Source: Ligilactobacillus salivarius DSM 20555 = ATCC 11741 (GTDB lineage Bacteria; Bacillota; Bacilli; Lactobacillales; Lactobacillaceae). Taken from it: DNA of 64,000 nucleotides. This document shows, one piece after another, positions 2,335-60,585 of this stretch. A program made the position numbers and the translations under genes. The stretch's first letter is position 1, and every line of letters begins with the position of its first letter. Under the pieces are notes generated by a model, which made no database searches, had not been told where the DNA came from, and saw only the letters and a list, made by a program, of their open reading frames with translations. Where the stretch lies: contig NZ_AYYT01000008.1 of NCBI RefSeq assembly GCF_001435955.1, forward strand, positions 1-64,000, written 5' to 3'.

Positions 2335-3384
2335 CTATTCAGTTTCAATTAATAAATCATTAGCTTTAACAAATTTACTTTCACCAACAAAAATATATTT
2401 CATCGCCAAACCTAAAATAATTGGCAATACCACAAACAATGTTGTTAGTAAAATCATACTATCTACTCCAGGATCCATTTGTTCATATGCTGTCATTGGT
2501 CCAATCAATCCAGCGAAACCAAATCCTGCACTCATAGGTGTTCCTTGGATTTTGAAGATAGCTCCTAAAGCACCCATAATTCCTGAACTAATTATCACTG
2601 GAATGAATAATTTCGGTCTTTCTAACATATTCCCCATTTGAATTTTAGGAGTTCCAATAAAATGAGCAAGGATTGTTCCTAAACTATTAACCGAACTTCC
2701 CATAATCGCTAATGTGAAAGCACCAGCTGTAATTCCTAGATTAGCTGAACCAGAGGCAATCCCACTTATTCCAATGGCAGTAGCTATTCCCACTGAACTA
2801 ATCGGAGATACAATCAGAACTGCAAATGATATTCCCATCAATGTTCCCATCAAAACTGGTTGAAGAATTGTAAAAGTCTTTATCATCGCTCCTACAAATC
2901 CTGTTACTAACTTGACATAAGGGAGAGTCATTAATCCTAGTCCACCACCCAGTACTAAGACAAGAACCGGCATCAACAGAACTGTATAATTCTTCAATTT
3001 ATTTCCAATAACACTAGCAATGATTACTGCAAATGTAATTGTTACGGCGACATTAATTACATCGCCTGTTCCAGCAAGAACATAAGTTGTCCCAGCTTTC
3101 TTCACTACACCTGATCCAATTGTTGTAGCTGCTGCAATTGAACTCATTTGAATCATATTCATTTTAAAGAGATATCCCACACAGAATCCAGCCATTGCCG
3201 GCAATAGGCTTGCAGCAAAGTTAGTAATATCAATCACCTGACTTGCAATATGTGGCATCACTCCCATCAAAGCTTTCATTAATTGACCAACTAATGCAGA
3301 AGGAATTAAAGCTACCACAACGCCCATACTAATACCATTTAAAATATTCATTGTCCCTGTTTTTAAGCTAATCTTTTTATTCAT
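2335..3384 (-). CDS. PTS EIIC-like membrane transporter (PfoR / PTS_EIIC_2 family)
   Basis: A 349-residue, very hydrophobic protein with about eight to ten predicted membrane segments. It contains glycine-rich loops such as GISGIASGSANLGITAG and the conserved patch around FIGTPKIQMGN, typical of the stand-alone EIIC_2 family that includes PfoR. No EIIA or EIIB domain is present in it or beside it, so a classical phosphotransferase role is doubtful. It is the third gene of the aminotransferase-dehydrogenase operon, 18 nt after the dehydrogenase. Import of an amino or keto acid, or export of a hydroxy acid, is therefore a reasonable inference, but the substrate is unknown. The start ATG is preceded by a weak AGGT-type site. 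Confidence 0.8.
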   Translation of the reverse strand: MNKKISLKTGTMNILNGISMGVVVALIPSALVGQLMKALMGVMPHIASQVIDITNFAASLLPAMAGFCVGYLFKMNMIQMSSIAAATTIGSGVVKKAGTTYVLAGTGDVINVAVTITFAVIIASVIGNKLKNYTVLLMPVLVLVLGGGLGLMTLPYVKLVTGFVGAMIKTFTILQPVLMGTLMGISFAVLIVSPISSVGIATAIGISGIASGSANLGITAGAFTLAIMGSSVNSLGTILAHFIGTPKIQMGNMLERPKLFIPVIISSGIMGALGAIFKIQGTPMSAGFGFAGLIGPMTAYEQMDPGVDSMILLTTLFVVLPIILGLAMKYIFVGESKFVKANDLLIETE

Positions 3385-3402: not shown

Positions 3403-4392
3403 TTAAATTTCATGGTCACTTCTTTTCTCTGAAATAATAGCTAATACATCATTTAAACTAATATCAACCATATTTTGAACGGCAACATTAGTATAGAAGC
3501 CAACATGCGGTGTCAAAATAACATTATTCATCGCTCTTAATTCTTTTAATTGCTCACTTGGTAATTCTTTACCACGTAAATCAAAATTAAAGAAATTCTC
3601 TTCGCCTGTAAGTGTATCTAAAGCTGCTCCTGCTAACTTCTTATTTTTTAAAGCAGCGATTAGAGCATCTGTATCTACAACTGGGCCACGACATTCATTA
3701 ATTAGAAATGCAGTTGGTTTCATTAATGCCAATTCTTCACTTCCAATTAATCCTTTGGTTGTTTCATTCAAGTCGACATGTAAACTAATAACATCTGATT
3801 CTTGTAACACTTCGTTCAATGACTTATAAGTCAAAACCTCATTTAATTCTGGATTTTGCTTGATATCATAAGCAATCACTTTAGCACCTAAAGCATTAAA
3901 CAATTTAGCTGCAGTACCACCAATTCTACCAGCACCGATTATCCCAATTGTCAAAGTATGGATTTCTTTTCCTTTAAGTCCAATCCATCTAAAATCTTGT
4001 TCCTCAGCTCTTTCATCAAACAATTCTAAATTACGAATTAATCGCATGGTATGTGCTAAGGCTAATTCTGCAACTGATCTTGGTGAATATGCAGGTACAT
4101 TCGTTACTTTCAAACCATTTTCATGAGCTAATTTAACATTAATTACATCATAGCCAGCAGTTCTTGTGGAAATTTGCTTTAATCCTAGGTTCTTCAATTC
4201 AGCATATACTTCATTTTCAACTAAACTTCTTTGTTGAATAACAACACCATCAAAACCTTTAAGTTTAGCTACTGTATCAGCATGTAGCTCACCTTCATCA
4301 ATTCCAACTTCTACATCAGAATGTCGCTCACTCCAATTTTCAATGGCTTCTTTTTCATCTTCACGTACTGACATCATCAAAATTTTTTTCAT
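3403..4392 (-). CDS. D-2-hydroxyacid dehydrogenase (D-lactate dehydrogenase family)
   Basis: A 329-residue NAD-dependent enzyme that reduces 2-keto acids to D-2-hydroxy acids. Visible features are the Rossmann loop GAGRIG near residues 154-159, the substrate arginine in NECRGPVVD, the glutamate in TGEENFF and the catalytic histidine in LTPHVGFYT, in the order expected for the D-LDH/D-HicDH family. The residues before the arginine (NEC instead of the common NTA) are a small departure. It sits between an aminotransferase and a transporter in one operon, so the likely substrates are keto acids made by transamination (aryl or branched-chain pyruvates) rather than pyruvate itself. Substrate preference cannot be read from sequence. 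Confidence 0.9.
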   Translation of the reverse strand: MKKILMMSVREDEKEAIENWSERHSDVEVGIDEGELHADTVAKLKGFDGVVIQQRSLVENEVYAELKNLGLKQISTRTAGYDVINVKLAHENGLKVTNVPAYSPRSVAELALAHTMRLIRNLELFDERAEEQDFRWIGLKGKEIHTLTIGIIGAGRIGGTAAKLFNALGAKVIAYDIKQNPELNEVLTYKSLNEVLQESDVISLHVDLNETTKGLIGSEELALMKPTAFLINECRGPVVDTDALIAALKNKKLAGAALDTLTGEENFFNFDLRGKELPSEQLKELRAMNNVILTPHVGFYTNVAVQNMVDISLNDVLAIISEKRSDHEI

Positions 4393-4408: not shown

Positions 4409-5584
4409 TTATTTGCTTTCATCTTCAACATACTTGGCAATTCGAGCCACACCTTTTTTTATTTCTTCCATACTTGTTGCATAGCTTAAACGGATATAGT
4501 GTTCTCCACCTTTACCGAAGAAAGAGCCAGCAGTTACTGCTACTTTTGCTTTTTCGGCTAAGTCATAAATAAACTTCTTATCATCTTGTTCTAAACCAGC
4601 TGGAATTTTTGCGAAAATATAGAATGCTCCTTGAGGCTTAGCACATTCAAATCCTAATTTAGTTAAGTTTGAATATAGATAATCACGTCTTGCTTGATAT
4701 TCTTTCTTCATTTCTTGACTATCATTCAAGCCATTTTCAAAGGCTTCTTGGGCTGCATCTTGAGCAATCGCAGTTGTTGTAGTAATTGTAAATTGATGAA
4801 TCTTAGATAATTCTTTTGTTATCTCTGCAGGTGCTGTCATAATACCAATTCGATACCCTGTCATTGCATGTGACTTTGATACACCATTCAATACAATTGC
4901 TTGTTCACGTAAACTTTTAGCTAGTGAAGCATGTTCTTGGTCATAACATAATTCGCTATATATTTCATCGCACAAAGCAAAAATTGGTTTATCACATATA
5001 ACATCAGCTAGTTCATCCAATTCTTCTTGACTATATGTAACACCAGTTGGATTAGAAGGATAATTTAAGACTACTACTCTGACATCATCGCCATGTTCAT
5101 CTAACACTTCTTTTAACATGTCAGCTGATAATTTAAATCCATTCTTAGATGTATCAACAAGAATTGGTTCTGCACCTACTAATAAAGCATCTGCAATATA
5201 TAATGGGAAAATTGGAGTTGGTACTACAACTTTGTCCCCAGGATTCAATACTGAAGTTAAAGCTGTATAAATAGCTTCAGTTGCACCATTTGTTACAATC
5301 ACTTCATTTTCCGGATTATATTCCAATCCATATCTTTCTTTTAAGAAATTAGCTGCAGCTTTTCTTAAACCAAGTGTTCCATTTGAAGGAGCATAGTGAG
5401 AATGGTTGGCTTTAACCCCTGCAATAGCAGCTTCTTTAATATGCTCTGGTGTATTAAAATCCGGTTCCCCTACTGTAAATTTTGTAATATCCGGAATTTT
5501 ACTACTATATTGAGCAAATGCCAAAATTTCAGATGGCTTAACTAATTCTAATTCTTTCTTCATATATTTTGTTAAATCTACCAT
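4409..5584 (-). CDS. Class I PLP aminotransferase (aromatic/aspartate type)
   Basis: A 391-residue fold-type I aminotransferase that moves the amino group of an amino acid to 2-oxoglutarate. The PLP lysine lies in NGVSKSHAMTGYRIG; the NYPSNPTG and CDEIY motifs are present. I place the start at 5584 (MVDL), where AAAGGAAG lies 7 nt upstream; a longer reading to 5602 would swallow that site. It is the first gene of the operon and is preceded by an intrinsic terminator only 17 nt away and by an aromatic-rich leader peptide. This suggests aromatic amino acids as substrates (Phe, Tyr, Trp to aryl pyruvates). That is inference; the family also includes aspartate and branched-chain enzymes. Confidence 0.9.
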   Translation of the reverse strand: MVDLTKYMKKELELVKPSEILAFAQYSSKIPDITKFTVGEPDFNTPEHIKEAAIAGVKANHSHYAPSNGTLGLRKAAANFLKERYGLEYNPENEVIVTNGATEAIYTALTSVLNPGDKVVVPTPIFPLYIADALLVGAEPILVDTSKNGFKLSADMLKEVLDEHGDDVRVVVLNYPSNPTGVTYSQEELDELADVICDKPIFALCDEIYSELCYDQEHASLAKSLREQAIVLNGVSKSHAMTGYRIGIMTAPAEITKELSKIHQFTITTTTAIAQDAAQEAFENGLNDSQEMKKEYQARRDYLYSNLTKLGFECAKPQGAFYIFAKIPAGLEQDDKKFIYDLAEKAKVAVTAGSFFGKGGEHYIRLSYATSMEEIKKGVARIAKYVEDESK

Positions 5585-5600
5585 ATTAAATCTTCCTTTC

Positions 5601-5637
5601 AAAAAAAGCCCCCGAAGATGTTTAATCCTCGAGGGCT
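5601..5637 (-). terminator. Attenuator terminator in the leader of the aminotransferase operon
   Basis: On the minus strand AGCCCTCGAGGA pairs over 12 positions (two G-U) with TCTTCGGGGGCT across a 7-nt loop, followed by seven T. It stands 17 nt before the aminotransferase start, so transcription must read through it to express the operon. Confidence 0.9.
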
Positions 5638-5806
5638 ACTATTCTCTAAATTTAGTTATCTTAGGTTAATTAAGATAATTAGCTATCCCTCAGATTAATC
5701 TGCGAGATCTAATTATCTGTGCTACAAAATAGCTTTCGCTTAGAACTCACAGGTACAAACATTTAATTCCTGTCCAGTGCTTGTACCCGCATTTCTGTGA
5801 ATACAA

Positions 5807-5878
5807 TCACTGCTTCCAAAAGCGAAAGTAAAAATAAGAATTATTCAATTTTAGTTGATTTTTAATTTCTGATCTCAT
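5807..5878 (-). CDS. Aromatic-rich leader peptide (23 aa)
   Basis: A 24-codon frame starts with ATG at 5878, 8 nt after a strong AAGGAG, and ends at TGA 5807-5809. Residues 15-21 are YFYFRFW: two Tyr, three Phe and the only Trp, six aromatics in seven codons. It begins about 26 nt after the predicted transcription start of the operon and precedes several mutually exclusive hairpins and an intrinsic terminator. This is the layout of pheL/trpL-type leader peptides, in which ribosome stalling at scarce aminoacyl-tRNAs chooses the RNA fold. Codons 17-20 form the 5' arm of a 9-bp stem with 5741-5733, so the ribosome's position would control that stem. Too short for routine gene calling. Confidence 0.8.
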   Translation of the reverse strand: MRSEIKNQLKLNNSYFYFRFWKQ

Positions 5879-5910
5879 AATAAAATCTCCTTAGCAAATT
5901 GAATACCTAT

Positions 5911-5939
5911 AATATACTCATGTAAGATTAAAAAGTCAA
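5911..5939 (-). promoter_or_regulatory. Promoter of the leader peptide and aminotransferase operon
   Basis: TTGACT (5934-5939), 17 bp, then TATATT (5911-5916) on the minus strand. Transcription would start near 5904. Confidence 0.75.
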
Positions 5940-5999
5940 CATTAAAATTAATTATTTTCACATTTAATTTTATAAATCACATCATCCGCCATACACTTA

Positions 6000-6043
6000 T
6001 ATGTATATTTAATACATAAAAGTGATTAAAAATGAATATTTTT
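6000..6043. promoter_or_regulatory. Candidate ArgR operators upstream of argG
   Basis: Two AT-rich inverted repeats lie upstream of the argG promoter: TATGTAT-N5-ATACATA (6000-6018) and AAAAAT-GAAT-ATTTTT (6028-6043). Further TGAATA half-sites occur near 6100-6118. They resemble ARG boxes in composition and spacing, and an argR gene is present at 11.2 kb. The match is by eye only. Confidence 0.4.
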
Positions 6044-6063
6044 GATTATTTTTACACTTTTTA

Positions 6064-6092
6064 TTGATTTTTATTAAAAATACATGTATAGT
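6064..6092 (+). promoter_or_regulatory. argG promoter
   Basis: TTGATT (6064-6069), a 17-bp spacer and TATAGT (6087-6092), 53 nt before the chosen argG start. Confidence 0.65.
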
Positions 6093-6145
6093 GTAGTCAA
6101 TGAATAGATTATGAATATTTTAATTTTATGAAAAGAGGAATTTAC

Positions 6146-7357
6146 ATGGAAAAAGAAAAAGTTGTTTTAGCATATTCTGGCGGTTTAGATACATCAGTTG
6201 AAATTGCTTGGTTAAAAAATAAGGGATATGACGTTATCGCATGTTGTATTGATGTAGGCGAAGGTAAAGACTTAGAGGCTATTAAAGAAAAAGGCTTAAA
6301 AGTCGGTGCAGTTGAATCAATCGTTATTGATGCTAAGCATGAATTTGCAGAAGAATACGTTCTTCCAGCATTACAAGGTCATGCTTACTATGAAAATAAA
6401 TATCCTTTAGTATCTGCTTTATCTCGTCCTTTAATTGTAAAGAAACTTGTTGAAGTTGCTAAAGAACATGGTGCAACAGCTATTGCACATGGATGTACTG
6501 GTAAAGGAAATGATCAAGTTCGTTTTGAAGTTGGAATCCATGCATTAGTGCCTGAAATGAAAATTGAAGATCCTATCAGAGATTTACATTGGTCTAGAGA
6601 AGAAGAAATTGAATACGCTAAAGAAAATGGCATTCCTGTTCCTATTTCTAAGAAGAGTCCATACTCTATCGACGAAAACCTTTGGGGCAGAGCAAATGAA
6701 TGTGGTATCTTAGAAGATCCATGGCAATCCGCACCTGCTGATGCTTATGACAGAACAGTCGCTCTAGAAGATACTCCTGACACACCTGATGTTATTGAAA
6801 TTACTTTTGACAAAGGTGTTCCAACTAAGCTAGATGGGGAAGAATTACCACTTGAAGAACTTATCATGAAACTTGATAAATTAGCTGGTAAACATGGCAT
6901 TGGTAGAATTGACCATGTTGAAAATAGACTTGTTGGTATTAAATCAAGAGAAGTTTATGAATGTCCAGCAGCAACTGTACTTTTAGCTGCACATAAGGAT
7001 ATGGAAGATTTAACTCACGAAAGAGATTTAGCTCATTTCAAACCAATTATCGAACAAAAATTAAGCGAATTAATTTACAACGGTCTTTGGTTCTCACCTT
7101 TAATGGACGCTATTCAAGCATTCTTAGCAGAAACTCAAAAAGTTGTTAATGGTGTAGTTAGAGTTAAATTATTCAAAGGCAATGTTATTTGCGAAGGTAG
7201 AAAATCCCCTAACTCTCTATATTCTGAAGAATTGGCTACTTATACTTCTGCTGATCAATTCGACCAAGAAGCTGCAGCTGGTTTTATCAAATTATGGGGA
7301 TTACCAACACAAGTTTATGCTGAAGTTATGCAACAAAATGAGAAAAACAATAAGTAA
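6146..7357 (+). CDS. argG: Argininosuccinate synthase
   Basis: Joins citrulline and aspartate using ATP to make argininosuccinate, the penultimate step of arginine synthesis. The N-terminal ATP loop AYSGGLDTS is at residues 9-17, and [13 protein letters not shown] and the [10 protein letters not shown] region follow, all standard for the family. Length 403 residues is normal. The start is the ATG at 6146, with AAGAGGAA 5 nt upstream; an ATG at 6128 precedes that site and is not favoured. It is followed 23 nt later by argH. No carbamoyl-phosphate or ornithine-pathway genes are in the window, so citrulline may come from outside or from elsewhere in the genome. Confidence 0.97.
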
Positions 7358-33404: not shown

Positions 33405-33602
33405 ATACAAAAAAAGCCAGAGAATTACTTTCTCTGACTTATGCGGCAGTATTCATATGAATAAGTTGATGCAGTTCACATCTACATCAAGCAAGTACGT
33501 TACAATCCGGTAACATCTGTACTCTGCCTTAATGAAAATAATCACTAGTCGCCGCAGCGAAACAACAAAATGTTGTCTGATTCTTCTCGACTCATCGCAT
33601 CT
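33405..33602 (-). ncRNA. Structured RNA of about 195 nt, unknown class (small RNA or riboswitch-like leader)
   Basis: Transcription would start near 33601. The first bases ATGCG (33600-33596) can pair with CGCAT (33445-33441), closing the whole molecule. Inside are a domain closed by AGTCG/CGACT containing ACAACA/TGTTGT, a long hairpin built on AGTAC-GTTAC/GTAAC-GTACT, a 9-bp hairpin TTGATGTAG/CTGCATCAA, and TATTCATATGAATA. TGCGGC in the first domain could instead pair with GCCGCA in the closing strand. A terminator follows 2 nt later. No long open frame fits. I could not match it to 6S, SRP, T-box or a named riboswitch. The next gene is the macrodomain protein, 24 nt further on. Confidence 0.65.
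33409..33438 (-). terminator. Terminator of the structured RNA
   Basis: GTCAGAGAA pairs with TTCTCTGGC (one G-U) around a 5-nt loop, followed by seven T on the minus strand. Confidence 0.85.
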
Positions 33603-60383: not shown

Positions 60384-60585
60384 GTTGTTCACCTCTCAAA
60401 AAATTTGCTGTGACTCGATTAATTTATTACAATTTTATTACAATTTTTATTTTTACCGGTTTTTTGGCAAAAAAAAGCAAAAACAGACAGAGACAAATTA
60501 AATTTGCTTCATACTATTTTTGCTTTTATCAAGTCTGCTATGGACAATATATCATAACAAACAATCAATTCACAGTTTTTCGCAT
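60384..60585 (-). promoter_or_regulatory. rpoB 5' leader with attenuator-like hairpin (candidate Lacto-rpoB motif)
   Basis: About 200 nt of untranslated leader. AAAAGCAAAAA (60527-60517) pairs with TTTTTGCTTTT (60483-60473) over 11 bp, enclosing CAAATT/TTTG, and runs into eight T (60476-60469): an intrinsic-terminator shape. CAGAC (near 60537) can pair with GTCTG (near 60487), which excludes the first pairing. A conserved leader named Lacto-rpoB is known upstream of rpoB in lactic acid bacteria; I cannot confirm identity by eye. Confidence 0.65.

Follow-up and report, generated by a model that had tools for sequence, protein, structure and literature searches.

The region upstream of an aminotransferase gene in Ligilactobacillus salivarius DSM 20555, on the minus strand of the 64,000-nt stretch analysed here (the window), very probably functions as a ribosome-mediated transcription attenuator, which would turn on an operon encoding an aminotransferase, a D-hydroxyacid dehydrogenase and an EIIC-like protein when charged tRNA-Tyr or tRNA-Phe is short. 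This reading is carried by the parts of the attenuator, their conservation, the covariation of the helices, a computed switch, the independent retrieval of the locus by a covariance model and the common use of such leaders with aromatic genes. A first-pass annotation of this DNA had also described an aromatic leader-peptide attenuator, a view now supported by the retention of the peptide and its aromatic codons among relatives, by covarying helices and by the computed switch.

Leader and operon at the aminotransferase locus

All elements named in the first-pass annotation, i.e., the promoter, an AAGGAG, a 23-codon peptide with YFYFRFW, a stem formed by its codons and a terminator, were found again on the minus strand, on which all leader and operon features described here reside. 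A putative promoter of the sigma-70 type (5911..5939), assigned purely by its match to the consensus (10 of 12 positions), consists of TTGACT (5939-5934), a 17-nt spacer and TATATT (5916-5911). It is followed by a 5' UTR arm, UAUUCAAUUU (5896..5905), which is complementary to leader codons 10-13 and part of the MFE fold, and by the Shine-Dalgarno sequence AAGGAG (5887..5892) of the leader ORF, MRSEIKNQLKLNNSYFYFRFWKQ* (5807..5878). Aromatic codons occupy positions 15-18, 20 and 21 of this ORF, residues 15-21 reading YFYFRFW. Strand A (CUUUCGCUU, 5820..5828), which begins with the third base of codon 17 and extends to base 2 of codon 20, forms a 9-bp stem with strand A' (AAGCGAAAG, 5733..5741) and covaries in relatives. 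Strand 1 (CAGUGAUUGUAUUC, 5799..5812) overlaps the stop codon of the leader and has strand 2 (GGGUACAAGCACUG, 5775..5788) as its partner, which can alternatively pair with strand 3 (UGUUUGUACCUGUGAG, 5746..5761). The latter pairs either with strand 2 via UGUUUGUACC or, via CUGUGAG, with strand 4 (CUCGCAG, 5700..5706). Strand 4 is in turn also complementary to strand 5 (AAUCUGAGGG, 5687..5696), whose second partner is strand 6 (CCCUCGAGGAUU, 5624..5635), the helix 5:6 being the antiterminator, and strand 6 is the 5' arm of the terminator, where it pairs with strand 7. Together, these alternative strands make up an ordered relay, and the fold of the leader RNA lies 5.7 SD below that of dinucleotide shuffles. 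The intrinsic terminator, strands 6 and 7 included (5601..5637), comprises a 13-pair hairpin (5637-5607) and a run of 7 U, and the ATG of the aminotransferase is located at 5584, 16 nt past the T run. The terminator had thus been placed correctly before the aminotransferase, its earlier dimensions (12 bp and a distance of 17 nt) requiring a trivial correction.

The operon starts with a class I/II aminotransferase (4409..5584; PF00155), for which the nearest NCBIfam model, PRK07309, scores below its cut-off. It continues with a D-2-hydroxyacid dehydrogenase of the D-LDH/VanH group (3403..4392; PF00389/PF02826) and, as the third gene, a membrane protein of the PTS_EIIC_2 family (2335..3384; PF13303), all gaps being shorter than 20 nt. 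No Rfam family reaches its gathering score at the leader. The trpB motif RF04312 obtained 27.1 bits by cmscan (E 0.16, 5598-5719) against a gathering score of 59, so the leader is not a member of that family, and among the amino acid leaders of Rfam (His, Trp, Phe, Leu and others) only His_leader appeared, with 23.1 bits against 49. A T-box (RF00230) was rejected: at the gathering score the window contains no match, and a search of 5400-6150 with an E limit of 10 gave none either. Rfam matches elsewhere in the window include a Ref68 sRNA and a Lacto-rpoB element at 33471-33599 and 60517-60570, both on the minus strand.

Conservation and covariation among relatives

Four genomes of the genus, that of the host included, carry an orthologous aminotransferase, and the leader is in the same place in all four. 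The three other enzymes are 61-66% identical to that of the host, and the cores of the four leader peptides read LNNSYFYFRFWKQ, LNNVYFYFYFK, LNNSYLYFRFFR and SNNWYYNFYFFR. A close aminotransferase is present in 171 of 399 genomes of the family, and the upstream regions of 111 such genes across Lactobacillaceae were read. About 85 of these 111 are preceded by the leader; a strict detector demanding an ORF with a good Shine-Dalgarno sequence and at least 5 of 8 residues F, Y or W recovered 83, as compared to 0-1 of 111 in shuffled sequence. The aromatic leader ORF is kept in the host genus and about 15 genera of Lactobacillaceae, and an equivalent intrinsic terminator is found in 83 of 86 leaders. 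The first-pass annotation had hinged on homologous leaders retaining the peptide and its aromatic codons, which they do while the surrounding sequence diverges. A blastn search with the leader against 60 relatives returned one true homologue (G015), the remaining weak matches being rejected as chance or as lying within unrelated genes, and a search for related loci returned only distant aminotransferases. The leader was not found at the aminotransferase paralogues of about 48% identity that were examined (in the host's own genome, L032 and others), and most members of four genera (g54, g6, g43 and g10) are without it.

Where downstream genes are visible (31 loci), the dehydrogenase follows 23 of 24 leader-bearing aminotransferases. 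Six aminotransferases of g54 without the dehydrogenase have no leader, although the upstream sequence of one (L052) is too short for a verdict. In two further lineages (L143 and L147) the aminotransferase directly precedes an EIIC-like gene, and the dehydrogenase is therefore no constant part of the operon. One g54 genome (L053 of G403) has a leader of another build, MSVLTIKTTSFFSFYYWD, before an aminotransferase which is directly followed by an EIIC-like gene; the other members of g54 lack the leader.

Two layouts of the leader can be distinguished. In the short type (g31, g38, g5 and g3), strand 1 at the stop codon pairs straight with strand 4, while in the long type (the genus of L. salivarius, g9, g36 and others) strands 2 and 3 are inserted, so that 1:2 frees 3 for 4; the parity of the switch is the same in both. 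Covariation of this region had been proposed as a check, and both the codon-formed stem and the switch helices indeed covary among relatives. In alignment A1, 92.8% of the cells are paired in the terminating state (covariation 0.235 against 0.144 +/- 0.009 in shuffles, slid controls not exceeding 0.141) and 96.1% in the antiterminating state (0.119 against 0.077 +/- 0.008). For the long type, the L. salivarius leader included, alignment A2 gave 88.9% paired cells (0.246 against 0.168 +/- 0.012) and, in a second pair count, 87.8% (0.246 against 0.176 +/- 0.013). The shuffles ignore relatedness, and these figures are therefore support rather than probabilities, the slid controls being more telling. 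The structure strings were taken from one sequence per alignment, complementarity served as a guide in placing the strands, and the long-type alignments are imperfect (A' of L. salivarius is shifted in A2). Along most of the helices 4:5, 5:6, 1:4 and 1:2, 81-100% of the cells are paired, far more than in slid controls. A:A' is paired in 99%, with exchanges from UA to CG and, in the long type, also from CG to UA and from GC to AU; these compensatory changes indicate that not only coding but also RNA pairing constrains the codons. An RNAduplex calculation for A:A' on all leaders (mean z -1.35) is a weak test, as long regions always yield some duplex, and was replaced by the aligned pair counts and by folding in dependence on the ribosome position.

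A second pairing involves the codons that precede the aromatic run. Leader codons 10-13 (AAAUUGAAUA) can pair with the 5' UTR immediately before the Shine-Dalgarno sequence, the pairing in L. salivarius being 5905-5896 with 5851-5842 (QLN/LNN codons). Across leaders QLN is conserved at this position, several Trp-type leaders included, mostly as CAA-UUG-AAU. Over 60 leaders these codons are complementary to the 5' UTR adjoining or including the Shine-Dalgarno sequence with a mean z of -1.44, the pairing being absent in some genera. A reasonable guess is a hairpin that would re-close the Shine-Dalgarno sequence after the first ribosome. The conservation of QLN might also be taken to reflect TnaC-like arrest by the nascent peptide, which would sense a free aromatic molecule rather than tRNA charging. 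We consider this very unlikely, as F, Y and W swap freely among the leaders and the C-terminal residues vary, and as the predominance of CAA-UUG-AAU, with its complementarity to the 5' UTR across many genera, provides a reason for the conserved residues at the level of the RNA.

Ribosome position and the sign of the switch

According to the proposed mechanism, A would pair with A' as long as no ribosome occupies the aromatic codons, shutting strand 3 in the loop; 4:5 would then form and leave strand 6 free for the terminator 6:7. Once the peptide is being translated, a ribosome stalling in the cell on codons 16-19 would cover A and expose strand 1, permitting formation of 1:2, then 3:4 and then the antiterminator 5:6, with readthrough by RNA polymerase as the expected result. 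If the peptide is completed, the ribosome at the stop codon would cover strand 1, followed by formation of 2:3, 4:5 and 6:7, and transcription would end.

The switch was computed by folding after removal of the RNA up to 12 nt past the start of the A-site codon; the 3' arm of the terminator was absent, and the upstream pairing of its 5' arm was scored. Folding was at equilibrium with the clearance of 12 nt assumed, and with an offset of one or two codons the boundaries given here would move. In the L. salivarius leader, a ribosome located upstream (A-site codons 11-14) leaves A:A' at 0.77-0.85 and 4:5 at 0.67, with 5:6 at 0.00. At codons 16-19 (F, Y, F, R) A:A' drops to 0.00, while 1:2 reaches 0.67-0.83, 3:4 0.67-0.87 and 5:6 0.46-0.59. 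The antiterminator is at 0.12-0.15 at codons 20-21 (F, W) and at 0.01-0.02 from codon 22 to the stop, where 2:3 is at 0.99 and 4:5 at 0.66. With the full 5' end and no ribosome, 5:6 amounts to 0.37 at equilibrium, indicating that the default lock is imperfect.

Among 83 leaders, the antiterminator signal on the aromatic codons exceeds that at the stop codon by more than 0.05 in 32 and falls below it by as much in 10 (upward in 14 of 16 genera, in some barely). Compared to upstream positions it is up in 34 and down in 5 (15 of 16 genera). Little or no switch results from the calculation in g9, g47, g50 and g55. For 34 leaders from seven genera, a set picked after the profiles had been seen, the difference between stall and stop is 0.226 versus 0.059 +/- 0.020 with the non-coding part shuffled. 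In the short type, codons -8 to -3 (counted from the stop) are permissive, and these positions coincide with the aromatic codons. The locus thus combines an aromatic ORF equipped with a Shine-Dalgarno sequence, a terminator before the first gene, and a terminator and an antiterminator that are mutually exclusive and set by the ribosome, the last as computed, clear in L. salivarius and in the short type and flat in some genera.

The first-pass annotation had suggested that Phe, Tyr and Trp are sensed jointly. Phe and Tyr agree with the permissive codons 16-19, but codons 20-21 are not permissive. As W21 lies outside the permissive positions and is replaced in many relatives, a response to Trp is doubtful in this species, and W21 is predicted to contribute little. 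Since any stall on codons 16-19 gives readthrough in the model, the leader might in principle serve as a general sensor of slow translation, i.e., an antibiotic-type attenuator like the bmrB or erm leaders. This appears extremely unlikely, as the leader has a specific set of codons that corresponds to the regulated pathways, and the controlled genes are metabolic rather than resistance genes.

The sign of the response, which had been left undecided, is settled in silico, as shortage of Phe/Tyr is predicted to lead to readthrough and to turn the operon on. This sign follows from the ribosome-position folding together with the further genes that this leader precedes elsewhere (shikimate operons, a transketolase and an ABC transporter). 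According to textbooks, lactobacilli convert Phe to phenyllactate by an aminotransferase and a D-2-hydroxyacid dehydrogenase, and the host apparently cannot synthesize aromatic amino acids. Both would suit the opposite sign, by which abundant aromatics would cause readthrough and the operon would dispose of them as D-aryl-lactates. We nevertheless regard this as unlikely, since folding predicts termination once translation is completed and since the same leader class controls shikimate genes, a transketolase and an ABC transporter, for which induction by shortage would be expected.

No chorismate synthase, prephenate dehydratase or prephenate dehydrogenase was detectable in the host genome (99.99% complete), and prephenate dehydratase is absent from 19 of 23 leader-bearing genomes tested. 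An auxotroph that cannot finish de novo synthesis would have to supply an aminotransferase induced by shortage with keto acids that are imported or derived from hydroxy acids, and the dehydrogenase and the EIIC-like transporter would fit salvage from such compounds. Thus, it might be hypothesized, with a chance approaching even, that the role of the operon is the salvage of aromatic keto or hydroxy acids to Tyr and Phe. Catabolism to aryl-lactates is also possible, and by its textbook function the hydroxyacid dehydrogenase fits that role at least as well. Induction by shortage is hence predicted for a type of operon to which the formation of aryl-lactates by lactobacilli of food and gut is attributed, which, if true, would alter the interpretation of this chemistry.

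Related leaders and known systems

A covariance model (R1) was built from 29 short-type and related leaders, none of them from the genus of L. salivarius (g1), and run on 346 genomes of Lactobacillales. In the host genome its sole match is the locus described here (5845-5684, E 3.6e-4). Elsewhere, matches with the same style of peptide precede operons for DAHP synthase/3-dehydroquinate synthase or shikimate dehydrogenase in several families, and also a transketolase gene (g34) and an ABC transporter of the PF04392 type. The DAHP synthase, the shikimate dehydrogenase, the transketolase and the ABC substrate-binding protein were assigned by Pfam, the others by sequence recognition. In the shikimate leaders of family f7, the helices 1:4 (AAUCUAUGG:CCAUAGAUU) and 5:6 (AUCGAAUG:CAUUCGAU) are directly readable. 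The first gene of the leader-controlled shikimate operons of this family encodes a small protein (MIIHTLGP...TDSYAAA; L181:1405-1938, similar in L153-L169), which has no Pfam match at E 1e-6. The leader peptide upstream of the transketolase gene in g34 (L151, L152 and L179) contains NNSYYYFWFM and would couple the supply of erythrose-4-phosphate to aromatic amino acid shortage.

The attenuators pheL, trpL and his of enterobacteria comprise a leader peptide with regulatory codons, mutually exclusive hairpins and a terminator before the first gene, and the his leader is a multi-segment relay. The lactobacillus leader shares the regulatory codons, the exclusive hairpins and the terminator, and resembles his in its relay. 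In contrast to these systems, its strand 1 sits at the stop codon, 3' of the regulatory codons, and the stem of codons and A' would serve as a default lock when no ribosome is present, so that the regulatory codons would at the same time provide the lock of the 'off' state. It had been stated that leader peptides are uncommon in Gram-positive bacteria, which is right as a tendency, with precedents in Listeria ilv (PMC5864092) and Bacillus hisS/hisZ (PMC2965389). The mutant-supported ilv attenuator Rli60 of Listeria monocytogenes responds to shortage with readthrough and is, like the leader proposed here, a Firmicute leader-peptide attenuator of amino acid genes; it differs in its branched-chain amino acids, its 13-aa peptide and a simple four-segment scheme (PMC5864092). 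In hisS/hisZ a leader peptide likewise takes the place of a T-box in Firmicutes, but histidine, aminoacyl-tRNA synthetase genes and Bacillus are concerned (PMC2965389). The uORFC-13-1 motif of Acholeplasma aroF (24 sequences) similarly has a predicted uORF with Phe codon(s), a terminator and an aromatic biosynthesis gene; it belongs to another lineage, and the sections of that report used here describe neither a relay nor a lock of codons and A' (PMC8632094). In the largely open-access literature covered, we found no earlier report of this leader in lactobacilli. The present leaders point to widespread leader-peptide control in bacteria where T-boxes would be expected.

Among the closest published elements are RF04312, which was described as a strong riboswitch candidate by authors who left a classic attenuator open (PMC11109978), and the S. 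agalactiae 5' UTRs gbs1262 and gbs2033, for which riboswitches were proposed (PMC4448216). Like the leader studied here, they are 5' UTRs of Lactobacillales with a hairpin, an antiterminator and a terminator before ABC transporter or aromatic genes; unlike it, they were published without an ORF (PMC11109978, PMC4448216). However, all 46 RF04312 loci of Lactobacillales that were read (L184-L213 and L214-L229) have a Trp- or Phe/Tyr-rich leader ORF. The 30 best have, immediately before the Rfam boundary, an ORF with a good Shine-Dalgarno sequence and an end such as W-x-x-W-R-R or W-Q-S-R, and the 16 weaker loci have W-containing or Phe/Tyr-rich versions, e.g., RFYFSYFR. The ribosome-position calculation gives a weak peak on the Trp codons (0.59 versus 0.44 at the stop). 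From these sequences, RF04312 resembles the 3' half of a leader-peptide attenuator more than a riboswitch, a concrete alternative reading for a family entered in Rfam as a riboswitch candidate.

The aminotransferase leader itself might be a metabolite-binding riboswitch for an aromatic compound with an incidental ORF. Riboswitches were proposed for the related gbs2033/gbs1262 (PMC4448216) and trpB motif (PMC11109978) elements, and the structure covaries. Yet conservation is highest in a translatable ORF encoding amino acids that fit the pathway, the ORF being rich in Trp ahead of most RF04312 loci and in Phe/Tyr ahead of others, and the computed switch tracks the position of the ribosome with no need of a ligand. 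A riboswitch is thus extremely improbable, and attenuation by the leader peptide is the reading we prefer. More tentatively, and with a chance clearly below even, it might be speculated that a single class of aromatic leader-peptide attenuators spans Lactobacillales, including RF04312 and probably gbs2033, and governs shikimate operons, transketolase, PF04392 ABC transporters and the operon for aminotransferase, hydroxyacid dehydrogenase and EIIC. The latter would then, upon shortage, take up aryl-lactate or aryl-pyruvate for conversion to Phe and Tyr, the phenyllactate route being reversed in auxotrophs.

A second leader of the same style, MNNSKINELNIRWQSQY*, is present in the host genome outside the window (G000:C60:44850-47200; L214). 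Downstream of it are an RF04312-like structure (52.7 bits) and an ABC transporter resembling the PF04392 type.
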